From Ohtaekwangia koreensis (GTDB lineage: Bacteria; Bacteroidota; Bacteroidia; Cytophagales; Cyclobacteriaceae): a DNA stretch of 64,000 nt. Under the pieces are notes generated by a model. The model ran no database searches and had not been told where the DNA came from. It saw only the letters and a program-made list of their open reading frames with translations. The stretch is taken from NCBI RefSeq assembly GCF_900167975.1, contig NZ_FUZU01000001.1, forward strand, positions 1,708,580 through 1,772,579. Reading direction: 5' to 3'. The translations under genes were made by a program, and so were the position numbers. Shown here one piece after another: positions 628-7,682 of the stretch (position 1 is its first letter; every line of letters begins with the position of its first letter).

Positions 628-1048
628 AACCACATTACGCCAGAAGTATCGATTCAACTCATGTCCAAGTATATATTGACTCAAGCACTGGCAAGCGTTA
701 TACATTTTTGTTGCGCATGCACTATGCAAATCTTTGAGCGCGACCTCCTATTTTCAAATGAGAGGTTAAACATTGATCAGCAATTTACAAGTGATAACGT
801 GACACTTATCGAACGCGTCTGGTACGCTTTTATACTCCCAACCACTTGGCTACAGTTTTTTTATACCTTTTGATAGAGTGTCTGCTGATATAATTTTTTT
901 TATCTCTGATAAATCACTACTTTCTAGAATAATTTGATCGAACGAAAATGAGTAGTAGCTATCCACTATTCAATCCTGATTATATAATTCTATTAATGTT
1001 TTGATCAGTTATAGGAAATACGTTGATGTTGATCTGAATTTATATAAG
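628..1048. other. Intergenic region upstream of the signalling cluster
   Basis: About 420 nt without a convincing gene. A 70-codon open frame at 661-873 has no recognisable protein features. A weak dyad (AAGTG/CACTT) lies near 788-811. The TTTTG at 999-1003 could be part of a promoter for the downstream kinase, but the rest of the box fits poorly. Nothing else is recognised. Confidence 0.4.
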
Positions 1049-4000
1049 ATGCGGATACACCATTGGATTTATTTATTAGTAGTATGTTTTGGACTTCTGA
1101 TTTCCTGCGCTCCGAAGAACAGCAGTAAAAAATTCAGGATTGGATTTGCGCAATGTACAGGCAGCGACCTATGGAGGAAGCAGATGCTGGCTTCGATGTA
1201 TGCAGAACTGTTATTCCACCCCGACATCGAATTAGAGTATCGCGATGCACAAAACAATACTGAAAAACAACGAAGAGACATAGAGAACTTTATCGATGAT
1301 AAGATCGATTTGCTTATCGTTACACCGAACGAAGCTGATGCCATCACACCATCCGTAGAGCTTGCCTATAATAAAGGTATACCGGTAGTAATGGTAGATC
1401 GAAAGATCAATTCTGAAAAATATACTGCATATATTGGAGCTGATAATTATGAGATCGGGAAGCTGGCAGGAGCGCTCGCTGCAGAGATATCCAAAGGCAA
1501 TGGAGCTATACTCGAAGTATGGGGCTTACGCGAATCCTCGCCAGCCCTTGAAAGACATCGTGGTTTTAGCGATGCCATTGCACCGTATCCGAATTTGAAA
1601 ATTGTTGCTTCGTTAGATGGGCAATGGGAGCAGGACACTGCAGCACACAGGTTCCGCGAAAGCGCAAGTATTCTTCCTTCTTTTAATATAGTATATGCAC
1701 ACAATGATGTGATGGCGTACTCCGTATATACCTTGTGCCAGAAACAAGGGCGTGCCGATAGCATTAAATTTATTGGGGTTGATGGGCTTTCCGGTCCCGG
1801 TGGTGGCCTGCAGTTGGTGAAAGATAGAATACTGACAGCAACATTCTTATATCCTACAGGAGGCGAAGAGGCTATCCGCACAGCCAGCGATATTTTACAC
1901 GGCCAACCCTATATAAAAGATAATATACTTGAAACAACTCCCATTGACAGCCGGAATGTAAAAGTAATGCAATTGCAGCAAATGAAAATGGAGGCGCAGC
2001 GAAATGATATTGTGCGCCTTCAGCAGAATGTAAATTCACAAGGGCAGCGTTTTGATCAACAGCAATTATATATCTATATTTTGCTGGCAAGCCTTGCGGT
2101 AATGTTGTGGACAAGTGTGATTGCCATTATATCCTGGCGAAAGAAACGTGATGCGTATCAGGCGCTTGCCGTTCGCAATGAAGAGATTCTTACCATCAAT
2201 GAACAGCTAAAATCCACCAACAATAAATTGGAAGACGCTCATCGAAAGATTTCCGAGCAGACACAAACAATCCTCCGGCAAAAAGATGAGCAACTGAATC
2301 GGGTGCTCGATTCTTCCAATGATATAATCTGGTCCGTTGATCTTTCAGGTACCGGAAAGAACTACCTCAGTCGTTCTGCTATGCGGTTGTTAGGTGGACA
2401 GGTAAAAAGCGAAATGATGAACGATGCGCATTACTGGCGCGAGCATATACCTGAAGATGATTGGGCTTTGAAAGATGAAGCGTTGCACACCGTACTACGG
2501 GAGGGCTATGCGGAATGTACTTATCGCATTAAAACAAGTGGTGAAAATTATCACTGGCTCTTTGAAAAAATCAGGATTATATACGATGAGCAGGAGCGGC
2601 CTCTCCGGCAGGAGGGTTTGATCGTTGATATTACCAATCAGAAAAAAGCAGAAGAAATAATACTACGGTATCAACAGCAACTTGATATTATATTTTCAAA
2701 TACCCAGGAGATGATCGCTTTGCTCGATGTCGATGGAAAGGTACTGCTCTTTAACAAGGCCTTTGAAAACTTCATGGAGGATGCATCGGGTGTAAAACCT
2801 GCTATCGGGAAGTATATATGGGATATTACTGTAAAAGAGCGCCAGGAAACTTCACAGCGATTGTTCCAGGAGGCCCTCGAAGGTAAGTTCATTAAAACCA
2901 CAGCGGCTTTTCATGTAAAGTCAGGAACGGTATATCATTCATTGCGCTACGAACCTGTATTGTCTGAAGGAAAAACTACCCATGTGGCTATTGTCGCATT
3001 TGATATCACACAACAAAAAGAACAGGAATATATAGTTCGTGAATCGGAAGCTAACCTGAAGGCTATTTTCGACAATACACGTGACTCCTTTACCCTGGTA
3101 TCACCGGATTATAAAATTATAGCCTTCAACAAGTCCAACTATAGAAATGTATTGCTGCGAACCAACCAAGAACTTAAAACAGGTGTAAACTTATTGGACT
3201 ATATAAGTGATGATCGAAAAAGTGCGTTTGTCAATTTACTGGAACGTGTGGAGAATGGAGAAATGATTTCGTACGATGCCAATCTTCAAAACGGAGGGTT
3301 GGAAGCTGCGTGGTTCAAGACAACGATCAGCTCTGTTAAATCAGAGGAAGGTAAGTTTATAGGGTATTGCATCGAGGCACATGATATAACCGAGCAAAAA
3401 GAATTTGAAGGTACGTTAACAGCAATAGCCCGGGAGTTGTCAAGCTTAATCGAAAATGCAAATGTACCTATATTTGGTATTGATCAGCATGGCAAGATCA
3501 ACGAATGGAACAGAGTTTCATTTGAACTCACCGGTTTTTCGAGAACCGAAATGATCGGCAGAAATTGGGTAAGCAATCTGCTGGAACCAGAGTATCACGA
3601 AGTGGTTACGGCAATTATGAAGGATGCACTGAATGGTGTCCCCGTAAGCAACTTTGAATTGCCATTGCTCTCCAAGAAAAAACAGAAGCTATCCTTACTG
3701 CTCAGCATTTCTCCTCGCAGAGATGCCGAAAATAAAATCGTGGGAGCAACCATCGTTGGTCAGAACATAACGGAGTTGATCGAATATAAGCAGAACCTCG
3801 AGCGCATGGTATATGATCGCACGCGCGAATTGAACGAGGCGTTGCAAAAGGAAAAAGAATTGGTGGAGATGAAGAGCAGGTTTGTATCTATAGCCTCGCA
3901 TGAATTCAGGACACCGTTGTCATCCATTTCACTGGCGTCCGGTTTTATAAAGAAGTATAAACAGAAGATAACGCCTGAAGAGGTAGACAAGCGATTGGAC

Positions 4001-4546
4001 AATATAGAAAAGCAAGTAGGGCACATGACGCACTTGCTGGATGATGTGTTGCTGATCGGCAAAACAGAAGCTGGTAAACTGGTGGTGCATGTATCCCAGG
4101 TTGATGTTTTTGAAACATTTGAGAAATTAAAAAATGAGATCGAGCAGAGTACAGGCAATACACACACTGTAAAACTTCATGTCAGTGGAGTTACAGGTAC
4201 AATCAGTACGGATGAGAAACTGATCAGAACCATGGTGATAAATGTGTTGACGAATGCAATCAAGTTTTCGCCCGGTAGCGGGTACGTTGATCTGTTCGTT
4301 GCCGCTGCGCCCAATAAGCTAACCATTCGTGTAAAGGACAATGGCATTGGTATACCTGAAGAAGATATCAAAAATCTCTTTGAACCTTTTTATAGGGCGA
4401 GCAATGCGAATGATGTAGAGGGCACCGGGTTAGGCTTATCGATTATACGCAAAGCACTTGATTTGCTGAGAGGCTATATTGATATAAAGAGTACCCTTGG
4501 AAAGGGTACAGAGATCACCATTGTAATTCCGTTAGCGCATGACTAA
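1049..4546 (+). CDS. Periplasmic sugar-binding domain / 4xPAS sensor histidine kinase
   Basis: A 1165-residue membrane histidine kinase. I start it at the ATG at 1049 because this places a hydrophobic signal with a lipobox (LISC, Cys20) at the N-terminus; the in-frame TTG at 1001 adds 16 hydrophilic residues. About residues 28-310 form a type I periplasmic-binding domain of the ribose/LacI kind (FRIGFAQ, GADNYEIGKLAG, YAHNDVMA, GVDGLSGPGG). A TM helix (about 339-363) and coiled coil lead to four PAS domains (about 418-540, 541-655, 665-785, 797-911). HisKA follows with H951 (SHEFRTP), then HATPase with N box (NAIKFSP), DNGIGIP and GTGLGLS. It probably senses a small sugar-like ligand. Its stop overlaps the next receiver gene by 8 nt, which suggests that receiver is a partner. 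Confidence 0.88.
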   Translation: MRIHHWIYLLVVCFGLLISCAPKNSSKKFRIGFAQCTGSDLWRKQMLASMYAELLFHPDIELEYRDAQNNTEKQRRDIENFIDDKIDLLIVTPNEADAITPSVELAYNKGIPVVMVDRKINSEKYTAYIGADNYEIGKLAGALAAEISKGNGAILEVWGLRESSPALERHRGFSDAIAPYPNLKIVASLDGQWEQDTAAHRFRESASILPSFNIVYAHNDVMAYSVYTLCQKQGRADSIKFIGVDGLSGPGGGLQLVKDRILTATFLYPTGGEEAIRTASDILHGQPYIKDNILETTPIDSRNVKVMQLQQMKMEAQRNDIVRLQQNVNSQGQRFDQQQLYIYILLASLAVMLWTSVIAIISWRKKRDAYQALAVRNEEILTINEQLKSTNNKLEDAHRKISEQTQTILRQKDEQLNRVLDSSNDIIWSVDLSGTGKNYLSRSAMRLLGGQVKSEMMNDAHYWREHIPEDDWALKDEALHTVLREGYAECTYRIKTSGENYHWLFEKIRIIYDEQERPLRQEGLIVDITNQKKAEEIILRYQQQLDIIFSNTQEMIALLDVDGKVLLFNKAFENFMEDASGVKPAIGKYIWDITVKERQETSQRLFQEALEGKFIKTTAAFHVKSGTVYHSLRYEPVLSEGKTTHVAIVAFDITQQKEQEYIVRESEANLKAIFDNTRDSFTLVSPDYKIIAFNKSNYRNVLLRTNQELKTGVNLLDYISDDRKSAFVNLLERVENGEMISYDANLQNGGLEAAWFKTTISSVKSEEGKFIGYCIEAHDITEQKEFEGTLTAIARELSSLIENANVPIFGIDQHGKINEWNRVSFELTGFSRTEMIGRNWVSNLLEPEYHEVVTAIMKDALNGVPVSNFELPLLSKKKQKLSLLLSISPRRDAENKIVGATIVGQNITELIEYKQNLERMVYDRTRELNEALQKEKELVEMKSRFVSIASHEFRTPLSSISLASGFIKKYKQKITPEEVDKRLDNIEKQVGHMTHLLDDVLLIGKTEAGKLVVHVSQVDVFETFEKLKNEIEQSTGNTHTVKLHVSGVTGTISTDEKLIRTMVINVLTNAIKFSPGSGYVDLFVAAAPNKLTIRVKDNGIGIPEEDIKNLFEPFYRASNANDVEGTGLGLSIIRKALDLLRGYIDIKSTLGKGTEITIVIPLAHD

Positions 4547-4916: not shown

Positions 4917-5588
4917 ATGGATACAGTAAAAGTTATAGTTGTTGATGATCATGGATTGGTACGCCAAGGTATAGTTTCGTTACTGCGCGAAACAGGCGAA
5001 GTTGAAATTCTAAGGAGTCTTGAAAGCGGTGAGGAAGCCGTGAATAGTGCAACCGAGCTTGCTCCGGATGTTGTGATCATGGATATAGTCATGAAAGGTA
5101 TGACGGGTATAGAAGCTACGCGCTGGATCAAAGAGCAAAATCCTCAAACGAAAGTTATACTTGTATCCAGTGAAGTGAATAAAGATTTTATACGGGCCGG
5201 ACTTCGCAGCGGAATGGATGGATACCTGAATAAGAACAGTACACCTGAGGTTTTGGTCAAAGCTATACGAAGCGTTGTAAAAGGAGAGAAGTATTTTAGT
5301 GCTGACGTTACGTCCCTGGTGCTCGATGATTTTTCATCGCCTGTGAAATCCGGACAACGTGATTCAAATAAAGGCGATCAACTGAAGAGTAGCATCCTTT
5401 CAAAACGCGAAGAAGAAGTACTCATGCTCATAGCGGAGGGTAAAAGCCTGAAGCAAATTGGAGAAGAGTTATTCATCAGCGTAAAAACGGTAGAGACGCA
5501 TAAGCTACATATACAGGATAAGCTCGGTCTTTCGGGTACAGCACAGCTTGTACGATATGCGTTGGAAAGGAAAATACCGCGGTCCTAA
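4917..5588 (+). CDS. NarL/FixJ-family response regulator (REC-LuxR HTH)
   Basis: A 223-residue DNA-binding response regulator. The N-terminal receiver (about 1-120) has DD at 10-11, the phospho-acceptor Asp56 (VVIMDIVM) and the Lys in YLNKNS. A LuxR-type helix-turn-helix lies at about 158-215 (LSKREEEVLMLIAEGKS, then KTVETHK). It is the third gene of the operon starting at 1049 and the only DNA-binding protein in the 10-kb signalling cluster. Its own stop codon lies inside an inverted repeat (5585-5601) that recurs before the next genes, which makes it the best candidate to bind those sites. Proteins of the NarL family usually bind inverted heptamers. Confidence 0.92.
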   Translation: MDTVKVIVVDDHGLVRQGIVSLLRETGEVEILRSLESGEEAVNSATELAPDVVIMDIVMKGMTGIEATRWIKEQNPQTKVILVSSEVNKDFIRAGLRSGMDGYLNKNSTPEVLVKAIRSVVKGEKYFSADVTSLVLDDFSSPVKSGQRDSNKGDQLKSSILSKREEEVLMLIAEGKSLKQIGEELFISVKTVETHKLHIQDKLGLSGTAQLVRYALERKIPRS

Positions 5589-5677
5589 GTGTTTTACTTA
5601 GAGCTCCTAAGTCATACCCTGATTTTACAAAATCATTTTCTCCCTGTCTAAATATAGCCGGGGTAGCAACATCTTTG
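5585..5677 (+). promoter_or_regulatory. Composite promoter element, copy 1 (before the GAF gene)
   Basis: Site A is a perfect 6-5-6 inverted repeat, CTAAGT-N5-ACTTAG, at 5585-5601; an extra CTAAGT half-site lies at 5607-5612. Site B is the inverted repeat TGATTTT-AC-AAAATCA at 5620-5635. Exactly 33 nt after the 8-base right half of B (ending at 5636) comes CATCTTTG (5670-5677), one base off the Bacteroidota -7 box TAnnTTTG. The ATG follows 18 nt later. The same order recurs at 6189-6290 and 7101-7193. Confidence 0.7.
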
Positions 5678-5695
5678 TGCTACTAACGAAAGGAC

Positions 5696-6181
5696 ATGAC
5701 AACAAAGGCGGATGCTGAACAAATTCCAGAAGAAAAGCTGAAAAGCTTGTTGCCGGATTTTGTTGACAACGTGGCCAATGAACGTTTTTGGAAAGAACTC
5801 GCACAACTCGCCATCATCATCAGCAGAACCACTTCCGTGTCCATCTGTTTTTTTGTCGATAATACGTTACAAGCTTTTGCTTCAGCAGGAAATGCTGTTA
5901 CAGATGAGCGTGTTCAGTTGTGGGAGTCTATCATACGTGATCATCATTATACCGAAATAGAAGACACGCTAAAGGAAGCTATATTTAAATTCGATTCACG
6001 TGTGTTTGATCAACCTGTTATTCGTTTCCTTGCCGGTATGCCAATTGTTACAGCGGATGGCATTGTGCTGGGTACTATAGGATTGGCAGACAACAAGCCT
6101 CGTAAATTTTCGGGCGAACAAATTCAATCATTAGGCATTCTTAGCCGAATCATTTCCACGCACCTGGAAATGAGTAAATAA
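5696..6181 (+). CDS. Stand-alone GAF domain protein
   Basis: A 161-residue soluble protein that is essentially one GAF domain. It has the typical late motif RFLAGMPIVTADGIVLGTIG followed by a helix (about 140-158), as in the GAF domains at the start of many Bacteroidota hybrid kinases, including the one at 7713. There is no output domain. It probably binds a small ligand or redox signal and acts on a partner, perhaps the sensorless kinase encoded next at 6313. It has its own composite promoter element, and the intergenic spacing argues against simple read-through from the LuxR-type regulator. The domain call is good; ligand and partner are unknown. Confidence 0.78.
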   Translation: MTTKADAEQIPEEKLKSLLPDFVDNVANERFWKELAQLAIIISRTTSVSICFFVDNTLQAFASAGNAVTDERVQLWESIIRDHHYTEIEDTLKEAIFKFDSRVFDQPVIRFLAGMPIVTADGIVLGTIGLADNKPRKFSGEQIQSLGILSRIISTHLEMSK

Positions 6182-6188
6182 TTTTGAG

Positions 6189-6290
6189 TTAAGTGTTTTA
6201 CTCAGGTGATTTCCTGATGATTTCTGCGCCCTGATTTTTTCAAAATCAGTGGGTGGCGCATTCGATATAGATCTCTATTTACCAATTTTG
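6189..6290 (+). promoter_or_regulatory. Composite promoter element, copy 2 (before the sensorless kinase)
   Basis: Site A at 6189-6205 (TTAAGTGTTTTACTCAG) matches 15 of 17 bases of copy 1. Site B is CTGATTTT-N3-AAAATCAG at 6231-6249. After exactly 33 nt comes CAATTTTG (6283-6290), then 22 nt to the ATG. The hexamer ATATAG sits at the same offset inside the 33-nt spacer as in copy 1. Compared with copies 1 and 3, site A is 9 nt further from B, close to one helical turn. Confidence 0.7.
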
Positions 6291-6312
6291 TTATCATCAA
6301 TTCACAGTTAGT

Positions 6313-7065
6313 ATGCTATCCAGTAAAGTTATTGTAATGGAAGAAAAAGAGCGGGAAGAACAATCTATTGGTAAAGAACTTGCAAAAGCGAAGAACGTTA
6401 TCGACAAGTTCCTATATAATTGTTCTCACTCAATGCGTGGTCCACTTAAATCCATTACAGGATTGGTGACGATATTAAAAAATCAACCGGCTGATACTAT
6501 TCAGTTGCCACAACACCTTGAACTGATTCAAAAGACGGTAAATAAAATGGAAACCATTCTGAGCGAGCTTGAGCAATTTCTCGCGAACTCCAGAAAGGAA
6601 CTGGTGATCGAATCAGTTTCCATGAATGAAGTTCTGGACACTATATTGGAAGACCATAAAAAGGAAGCAGAAGATAAGAACATCAGGCTGTCCAAAAATG
6701 TAGTGCAGACGGTTCCATTCTATACTGATCAGGAGCGACTTGTGATGGTATTCTCGCAGTTGATATTAAACGCTCTTGTTTTTAATGATTCCTCTAAAGA
6801 GGATCGCTATGTAGATATATTCGTGCGCGTAAACAGTAATGGTTGTCACATCAAAGTATTGGACAACGGTATCGGTATATCTGCCGATATTCAAAAGAAT
6901 ATATTCCAGCTTTTTTATAGAGGTTCACAGCAGTCGCAAGGTGCGGGTATCGGCCTCTATATTGTAAATGAAGTGTTGCGCAAAATGAGTGGCAGTATAA
7001 CGGTTAATTCGGAGGAAGGTTGCGGGTCCAGCTTCTTTGTGTGGATTCCGAACTTAAAGGCTTAA
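6313..7065 (+). CDS. Soluble sensorless histidine kinase, variant H-box
   Basis: A 250-residue cytoplasmic kinase with only a short N-terminal helix, a dimerisation/phospho-acceptor domain and an HATPase domain. The acceptor is H39 in NCSHSMRGPLKSITG. The residue after His is Ser, not the Glu or Asp seen in standard HisKA domains. The ATPase part has LDNGIGISADI, FYRGSQQ and the lid GAGIGLYIV (about 178-230). With no sensor of its own it probably takes its signal from the GAF protein encoded just upstream. The start could also be the ATG at 6337. Both sites of the composite promoter lie in the 131-nt gap before it. Confidence 0.85.
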   Translation: MLSSKVIVMEEKEREEQSIGKELAKAKNVIDKFLYNCSHSMRGPLKSITGLVTILKNQPADTIQLPQHLELIQKTVNKMETILSELEQFLANSRKELVIESVSMNEVLDTILEDHKKEAEDKNIRLSKNVVQTVPFYTDQERLVMVFSQLILNALVFNDSSKEDRYVDIFVRVNSNGCHIKVLDNGIGISADIQKNIFQLFYRGSQQSQGAGIGLYIVNEVLRKMSGSITVNSEEGCGSSFFVWIPNLKA

Positions 7066-7100
7066 AAATCATCCTCTCTTGTGCGCATTTTACGGATTGT

Positions 7101-7193
7101 TTAAGTGAAAAACTTAGATCATTCTACACTTCCTGATTTTACTAAAAATCAGCCTTATGCTGATTTTTAAAGTGGCTTTTCAATGCATTTTTG
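7101..7193 (+). promoter_or_regulatory. Composite promoter element, copy 3 (before the HPt gene)
   Basis: Site A (TAAGT-GAAAA-ACTTA) lies at 7102-7116, aligned as 7101-7117 with the other copies. Site B is CTGATTTT-N4-AAAATCAG at 7133-7152. After exactly 33 nt comes CATTTTTG (7186-7193). A third CTGATTTT at 7160-7167 also lets 7145-7167 fold into a stem (AAAATCAG/CTGATTTT, 7-nt loop). Because the -7-like box covers the TTG at 7191, the HPt gene should start further downstream. Confidence 0.7.
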
Positions 7194-7232
7194 TACATGA
7201 ATTCTCAGGCTGAAATCTTAAATTTTAAAAGT

Positions 7233-7682
7233 ATGAATACGAACAGATCAATGAATCAAATTCTTTTGAAGAACCAGACCTTTGTGGAAGTATCTGTTCA
7301 GGAACGTGATGTAGCGGCTAAGAATAAACCTGCTGAGCGTTTTTTTGATGTTGATAAATTTAATAAGCTCACCGGGGGCTATGATAAAATACAAGAAGAA
7401 CTACTCGGTGCTTTCCTGGAATTTACACCCGTGTTATTGGAAGAACTCAAATATATAGTGTCTTCGAACAATGCCAGTGATGCTGCACGCATACTGCATA
7501 AATTAAAATCTTCTACATCGCTGTTGTGTACCAACGTGCTATATGCTGAGATTATTCATTTGGAAGAAACTTCTAATACTATACATGGTTCCGAGTATAA
7601 AGACCGGATCGTTAAGCTCATTGCTTCACATGAGGTATTGATGGACGAAGCAAGAGCTATGCAAAAAATCCTTTCATCTTAA
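7233..7682 (+). CDS. Histidine phosphotransfer (HPt) domain protein
   Basis: A 149-residue protein, counted from the ATG at 7233, whose C-terminal 110 residues look like an HPt four-helix domain. The phospho-acceptor is probably H89 in ARILHKLKSSTSLL, matching the family pattern AHxLKGSS with Lys and Ser at the expected places. An in-frame ATG at 7197 and a TTG at 7191 exist, but they coincide with the putative promoter box, so 7233 is preferred. A lone HPt protein next to a hybrid kinase and two receiver proteins is the expected shuttle of a multistep phosphorelay: hybrid kinase receiver to HPt to REC protein. Partner choice is inference. Confidence 0.78.
   Translation: MNTNRSMNQILLKNQTFVEVSVQERDVAAKNKPAERFFDVDKFNKLTGGYDKIQEELLGAFLEFTPVLLEELKYIVSSNNASDAARILHKLKSSTSLLCTNVLYAEIIHLEETSNTIHGSEYKDRIVKLIASHEVLMDEARAMQKILSS

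Follow-up and report, generated by a model that had tools for sequence, protein, structure and literature searches.

The 64,000-nucleotide (nt) window of Ohtaekwangia koreensis (NZ_FUZU01000001.1, positions 1,708,580 to 1,772,579, forward strand) contains a signalling cluster in which the gene of a NarL/FixJ-type response regulator is followed by genes for a GAF-domain protein, a histidine kinase in which no sensor domain was found and an HPt-domain protein (Table 1). The gaps before the last three genes (5589-5695, 6182-6312 and 7066-7232) each hold the same ordered parts: an inverted repeat (site A), a palindrome (site B) and a box, CAnnTTTG. An earlier note, made from the sequence alone, had read the gaps as composite promoters with two activator sites and a fixed contact with RNA polymerase, or a dedicated sigma factor, and had named the adjacent regulator as the best candidate activator. 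Our analyses partly supported that interpretation; its parts were redrawn and the set of genes proved larger. We consider it likely, judging from the sequences compared here, that the three gaps are activator-dependent promoters of one response-regulator regulon, directly activated by the 4917-5588 regulator or a close paralogue.

The three gaps and their conservation

The composite parts were present in all three gaps, as the note had claimed. Site A, TAAGTN5ACTTA, was exact at 5586-5600, where the TAA stop codon of the regulator gene sits in it, and at 7102-7116, and had the reported single mismatch in copy 2 (6190-6204). By itself site A was unremarkable, as the window had 4 matches with up to one mismatch and 2.47 were expected. 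Site B (CTGATTTTN1-6AAAATCA) occurred at exactly three places in the 7.24-Mb genome, all in this cluster, and its reversed control at none; since 110 of 148 family genomes hold the B palindrome at least once, B alone is not a specific signature. The 8-base right half of B was separated from CAnnTTTG by 33 nt in all three copies (5637-5669, 6250-6282 and 7153-7185), confirming the invariant distance. From A to the right half of B we measured 28, 37 and 28 nt (copies 1, 2 and 3), each one more than the 27, 36 and 27 given before. The hexamer ATATAG, to which a common offset inside the spacer had been ascribed, had that offset in copies 1 and 2 only, and the corresponding positions in two related loci (L067 and L068) read TTATAC, TTTTAG, AGTCTA and AGTCTA. 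It was rejected as a shared element and looks like chance, because the relatives do not keep it.

The related loci came from a genome scan with the GAF protein, which identified five. L066 (GAF 99% identical) was near-identical to the window and was excluded as not independent, and the remote GAF relatives L069 and L070 were left out. L067 and L068, whose GAF proteins were each 61% identical, had the same cluster order and kept all three promoters, in each of which 33 nt separate the right half of B from the box (up to one mismatch). Conservation between the window and these loci was strongest at site A, at the right half of B and its surroundings, and at TTTG; copy 2 had additional conserved stretches between A and B, and the left half of B was degenerate in copy 3 of both loci. 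The element is thus present before orthologous genes, and the claim that it is not a recent duplication was borne out by the promoters kept there.

For the HPt gene, alignment with relatives favoured the ATG at 7233 over the TTG start of the open reading frame (ORF) at 7191, which falls inside the putative -7 box. Upstream of the conserved cluster, the window has a sensor kinase ORF (1001-4546) of 1181 amino acids (aa) with a periplasmic-binding domain. Its counterparts (L067:2155-4845 and L068:2148-4838) have 896 aa and another N-terminus, perhaps reflecting a sensor swap between the window and L067/L068.

One inverted repeat at a fixed distance from the box

To redraw the unit, 16 sites were aligned. 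They had AAAATCA[GT], then seven bases, then CTGATT or a weaker form of it. Read from this alignment, the unit is an inverted repeat (dyad), T[AC]AG-N7-CT[GT]A, with site A as one copy and the right half of B as the left half of a second. The proximal operator, AAAATCAG-N7-CTGATTTT, is clearest in copy 3; copies 1 and 2 show its second half weakly. Site A, TAAG-N7-CTTA, is built to the same geometry, and in genome G136 the repeat at the A position reads TCAG-N7-CTGA, which shows directly that A and the proximal repeat are equivalent. The inner spacer of B would vary (2, 3 and 4 nt) because B is made up of half-sites from adjacent repeats. A third repeat, TAAG-N7-CTGA (5608-5622), lies between the two in copy 1 and shares its right half with B, as the left half of the palindrome; for the corresponding half of B in copies 2 and 3, no left partner was found within the one-mismatch limit. 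As read from these sequences, B as a junction of two sites appears firm for copy 1 only. The shared composite promoters of the earlier note stood; its two different activator sites did not, as both are one inverted repeat. The dyad alone was too loose as a genome-wide probe, with 522 matches per strand at up to two mismatches.

The -7 box of the primary sigma factor of Flavobacterium psychrophilum, TAnnTTTG, spans -12 to -5 (passages of PMC9723704). As CAnnTTTG resembles this Bacteroidota -7 box, the 33-nt rule would place the inner repeat near -42. This is the classical position for an activator that touches RNA polymerase. If the NAnnTTTG box is taken as -12 to -5 and up to one mismatch is allowed, 16 of 22 sites have a dyad at -42, 5 at -67, 7 at -89 and 3 at -98; 39 dyads were counted in total versus 4.9 in mononucleotide shuffles, in a set of sites that was hand-chosen and has several members orthologous to each other. 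The A and TTTG of the box were invariant in 14 aligned sites, which had been picked with that pattern, and no clear -33 element was seen by eye at these promoters. The fixed distance fits the contact with RNA polymerase first suggested. Given the resemblance of CAnnTTTG to the ordinary -7 box of Bacteroidota, there is no need for the dedicated sigma factor offered beside it.

Table 1. Genes, dyads and boxes of the cluster (window coordinates), and the three distant sites.
Feature	Position	Strand	Remarks
NarL/FixJ-type response regulator (receiver and LuxR-type helix-turn-helix), proposed activator	4917..5588	+	Pfam Response_reg PF00072 5e-27, GerE PF00196 3e-18
Distal dyad 1 (A1), TAAG-N7-CTTA, centre about -89	5586..5600	+	Overlaps regulator stop codon; one mismatch in L067/L068
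Middle dyad of promoter 1, TAAG-N7-CTGA, centre about -67	5608..5622	+	Kept in L067/L068
Proximal dyad 1, degenerate TCAT-N7-CTGT (more than one mismatch), centre about -42	5633..5647	+	Left half is the right half of B1, 5629-5636
Putative -7 box CATCTTTG, GAF promoter	5670..5677	+	33 nt after 5636; GACATTTG in L067/L068
GAF-domain protein gene	5696..6181	+	Pfam GAF 5e-5, GAF_2 1e-5 (weak)
Distal dyad 2 (A2), one mismatch, centre about -98	6190..6204	+	Dyads at same place in L067/L068
B2 palindrome	6231..6249	+	Right half 6242-6249 begins proximal dyad 2
Proximal dyad 2, degenerate right half, TCAG-N7-CGCA, centre about -42	6246..6260	+	CGGA in relatives
Putative -7 box CAATTTTG, kinase promoter	6283..6290	+	GAATTTTG in L067/L068
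Histidine kinase, no sensor domain found	6313..7065	+	HisKA 2e-7, HATPase_c 7e-22
Distal dyad 3 (A3), centre about -89	7102..7116	+	
B3 palindrome	7133..7152	+	Left half degenerate in L067/L068
Proximal dyad 3, TCAG-N7-CTGA, centre about -42	7149..7163	+	Full AAAATCAG-N7-CTGATTTT at 7145-7167
Putative -7 box CATTTTTG, HPt promoter	7186..7193	+	33-nt distance
HPt-domain protein gene	7233..7682	+	Pfam Hpt 9e-4 (weak, under curated cut-off)
Site before HPt-like gene	L077, 4336		
Site before large secreted protein	L077, 12215		
Site before large secreted protein	L076, 3759		

Distant promoters and the distribution of the regulator

A loose pattern (AAAATCAK...NANNTTTG, spacing free from 18 to 48 nt) had 110 matches in the whole genome. 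Among the 100 matches listed of these 110, 10 had the 33-nt spacing, and other spacings had a mean of 3.0. Six of the ten were convincing, namely the three window copies and three distant sites; the other four (C3:391405, C5:428806, C5:662806 and C6:1406531), without the N7 right half, were taken as chance. The pattern TCAG-N7-CTGAT-N21-CANNTTTG gave 35 genome matches with up to two mismatches, and four sites matched TCAGN7CTGATN21CANNTTTG exactly: copy 3 and the sites before an HPt-like gene and two secreted-protein genes. A one-mismatch match at C6:1545306, inside an ORF on the opposite strand, was dropped. The element is therefore not confined to three neighbouring genes, where it had first been placed, as these three further promoters carry the 49-nt unit.

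The name HPt-like is tentative, because that protein had no Pfam match at 0.01 and aligned weakly with the window HPt protein (E 0.02). One distant secreted protein has a Peptidase_S74 chaperone domain, of the phage-tail type, and the gene following the other secreted-protein gene has a type IX secretion tail. Four distant targets (L077:12307-14100, L076:3855-6317, L112:16052-17959 and L113:2871-4745) are secreted-looking, at about 600-820 aa, and by eye the distant target proteins share an N-terminal stretch, L(D/E)(V/L).ST(N/S)(K/S)GLL.PR.

The sequence-only model R1 was trained on 14 sites, including all six of this genome and leaving out L071 (34-nt spacing) and the L072 kinase-gap site, and was run on the 148 family genomes and seven genus genomes. 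In O. koreensis it returned the six sites at E<=0.02 and no others; these E-values are no independent support, because all six sites trained R1. The three distant sites had first been found by pattern, before R1. Six of the seven genus genomes had 3 to 6 R1 sites at E<=0.02, and G074 had none. Homologues of the HPt-like or the two secreted-protein genes follow 13 of the 18 sites that were examined beyond the three-gene cluster in relatives (3 of the 13 in G151, which is nearly identical to this genome), and something else follows the remaining five (G150 C7, G149 C6, G127 26575, G015 and G093). No site before the 597-aa secreted protein of G150 was among the R1 matches. The G015 and G093 sites (L116:2566 and L119:3015) stand before a secreted-looking protein of about 190 aa and adjoin divergent genes that by eye resemble a kinase and a response regulator. 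A site in G137, at L118:2838 on the minus strand, precedes an ORF of 17 codons. In G013 there were nine partial matches, all of 14.8 bits, probably a repeated element unrelated to the regulon.

The same six of seven genus genomes have both the sites and the regulator subfamily, and G074 has neither. The regulator gene is directly upstream of promoter 1 in four of them (G000, G148, G150 and G151), and in G127 the closest homologue (60%) is directly before the HPt-like promoter. Both the co-occurrence and the adjacency support the adjacent NarL-type regulator as the best candidate. In six genomes, close relatives of the 4917-5588 protein have 50-64% identity and the next matches at most 38%; across the whole family, identity falls gradually from 59% to 38%. 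The window's genome has three subfamily members, including the paralogues C6:2113130 and C3:315659. None of the three is at the HPt-like locus, and the window's regulator would therefore act there in trans. The comparisons show sequence conservation, a fixed geometry relative to the box, the return of the unit upstream of the same distant genes in the relatives, and the joint presence of regulator and sites within the genus.

Among the 148 family genomes, 11 had an R1 site at E<0.02; matches below this value were seen in G007, G001 and G103 (viewed as raw sequence) and in G054. Six of the 11 are among 16 genomes with a regulator of at least 46% identity (hypergeometric 2e-4), a cut-off of about 46% that was set after seeing the results; the full list of 22 genomes with a regulator at E<=1e-45 gives a weaker value (0.0016). 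A scan of the 450 nt that follow the regulator gene at 25 loci, in which the spacing could differ by one base, identified high-scoring sites directly downstream of that gene in other genera (G036, G033 and G107). The paralogue C3:315659 of this genome had no convincing site downstream. The sequences indicate a good association of regulator and sites within the genus and a patchy one beyond it.

Other repeats were observed near members of the subfamily. Two adjacent dyads in G033 (L161:1463-1535), TATCAGGGAATCCCTGATA then AATCATCATATCCCTGATG, are 24 bp apart and about 5 kb from the regulator gene. Repeats with an 8-nt spacer (TCAGGGTNNNCCCTGA type, by eye) are beside other subfamily regulators in G044, G084 and G062, at L165 near 1291 and 5706 and after the regulator gene in L167 and L164. 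The 8-nt-spacer repeats suggest that the operator may drift across the subfamily.

A candidate mechanism and its relation to known systems

In the mechanism that we propose, a dimer of the 4917-5588 regulator, or of a close paralogue, would bind the repeat T[AC]AG-N7-CT[GT]A, whose centre would lie about 42 bp ahead of the transcription start. At -42 the dimer would overlap the -33 region and touch RNA polymerase with its ordinary sigma factor at the -7 box, CAnnTTTG. This would be class II activation at promoters without a clear -33 element, aided by upstream dimers loaded at the further repeats around -67 and -89/-98. The regulator would raise its own phosphorelay partners, namely the kinase, GAF and HPt proteins (positive feedback), and would act in trans on the HPt-like protein and the two secreted proteins encoded elsewhere. 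We infer binding by the regulator, activation and the position of the start from the sequences; activation is favoured over repression because of the position of the repeat and the lack of a -33 element.

Several observations weigh against this mechanism. L067 and L068 are closely alike, so the pair amounts to fewer than two independent tests of conservation. At -42 the left half was in part built into the comparison, and the numbering comes from the Flavobacterium box; neither the right half nor the distal repeats were built in. A proximal dyad within one mismatch is confined, in the window, to copy 3, and the -7 boxes of the 14 aligned sites start with C or G, not T. The genome-wide spacing bias by which the earlier note had proposed to judge the element is present at 33 nt and moderate in size (28 nt has 9 among the 100 matches listed of 110). 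When the training genomes G000, G127 and G136 are left out, the co-occurrence weakens to 3/8 versus 13/145 (p 0.025), or 3/8 versus 19/145 with the 22-genome regulator list (p 0.07). At the regulator loci, the score exceeded 18 in 4 of 25 (G036, G033, G107, whose box ends TTTA, and the paralogue C6:2113130 of this genome) and did not in the other 21, including the close members G132 and G142; the helix-turn-helix stretch of G142 is identical to that of G036, yet no site was found at the G142 locus. Outside the genus, G137 has the strongest of the R1 sites (E 1.6e-4) but no regulator at E<=1e-45, and the three subfamily members in this genome could share sites.

The existence of three subfamily members, the strong G137 site without a close relative of the regulator and the very similar helix-turn-helix regions of the subfamily would all suit binding of the same operators by a paralogue or by some other LuxR-type protein, with 4917-5588 no more than a neighbour. 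We regard this as unlikely: in four genomes of the genus the regulator gene immediately precedes promoter 1, the closest G127 homologue adjoins the HPt-like promoter there, and the co-occurrence within the genus is six of seven. A dedicated sigma factor might instead read CTGATTTT and CAnnTTTG as two boxes, the inverted repeat being incidental, as the distance from CTGATTTT to the box is 18 nt in copy 3, both in the window and in L067/L068, and at one distant site of this genome. This is very unlikely: the 33-nt rule still holds in copies 1 and 2, where the right half is degenerate, more N7 dyads lie upstream, beyond sigma contact, and NAnnTTTG resembles the primary-sigma TAnnTTTG (in the same passages of PMC9723704).

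Folding was also considered, in that the B palindromes could act in RNA as attenuators or terminators between genes. The three window copies of B do fold (z -1.6, -2.2 and -3.3); in L067/L068, however, the copy 3 fold did not exceed that of shuffled sequence (z 0.1 and -0.5), although the N7 dyad is kept there, and the sole terminator-like site called in 5500-7300 was at 6202-6217, not at B. Such a role is highly improbable, and B was rejected as a conserved RNA hairpin, the relatives having been folded for copy 3 only. Finally, site A alone is near its chance expectation, but chance or recent duplication is hardly credible for an element kept at the same three places in divergent relatives and found at distant promoters.

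Direct activation by the response regulator would have a wider meaning. The Bacteroidota primary sigma factor reads unusual sequences and, to our knowledge, activator-dependent promoters have been little mapped in this phylum. The operator, the candidate regulator, the fixed geometry and six promoters, most of them kept across species, form a test set for response-regulator activation of the Bacteroidota sigma factor, and link a signalling cluster to secreted proteins. With about even confidence, we speculate that this is an undescribed Bacteroidota phosphorelay regulon, in which up to three dimers (-89, -67 and -42) load as a phased array on promoters without a -33 element, each cluster gene has an array to itself, and the relay controls large secreted surface proteins with a phage-tail-type chaperone domain. 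Among the titles listed in an open-access library, none described such a regulon. It is the proposed regulon that is new; the operator and the regulation are of known type.

UvrY/SirA (GacA-type) is a response regulator of the NarL/FixJ kind. The UvrY box is TGTAAGN6CTTACA, and the passages of PMC4682653 that describe it report inverted TAAG...CTTA, partial extra half-sites nearby and few strong direct targets, as here. Unlike that system, the spacer here is N7 rather than N6, the half-site also occurs as TCAG/CTGA with an AAAA/TTTT flank, and the centre is at about -42 rather than about -183 as at csrB (PMC4682653, same passages); in our count, which searched N7 only, the dyads had the 7-nt spacer and were without the outer TG/CA of the UvrY/GacA box. 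UvrY/SirA also differs in belonging to Gammaproteobacteria and acting on Csr small RNA genes. The half-sites given for RcsB, of the NarL/FixJ family, in passages of PMC5829831 (TTAGGAA and TCTAAGA) contain TTAG/TAAG. The RcsB regulon is different, and the comparison with it was of half-sites. The FixJ consensus of rhizobia, of the form TAMG-N7-CSTA, has the same N7 geometry, in Alphaproteobacteria and at nitrogen-fixation genes. Passages of PMC13327599 name only a GTACGTAG motif and no FixJ consensus. The promoters resemble those of the Bacteroidota primary sigma factor (PMC9723704) in the NAnnTTTG box, here at a fixed distance from the repeat, and differ from them in a first box base of C or G and no clear -33 element by eye. 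Based on the likeness to UvrY, RcsB and FixJ, the operator appears to be of a known type with a spacing and half-site of its own.

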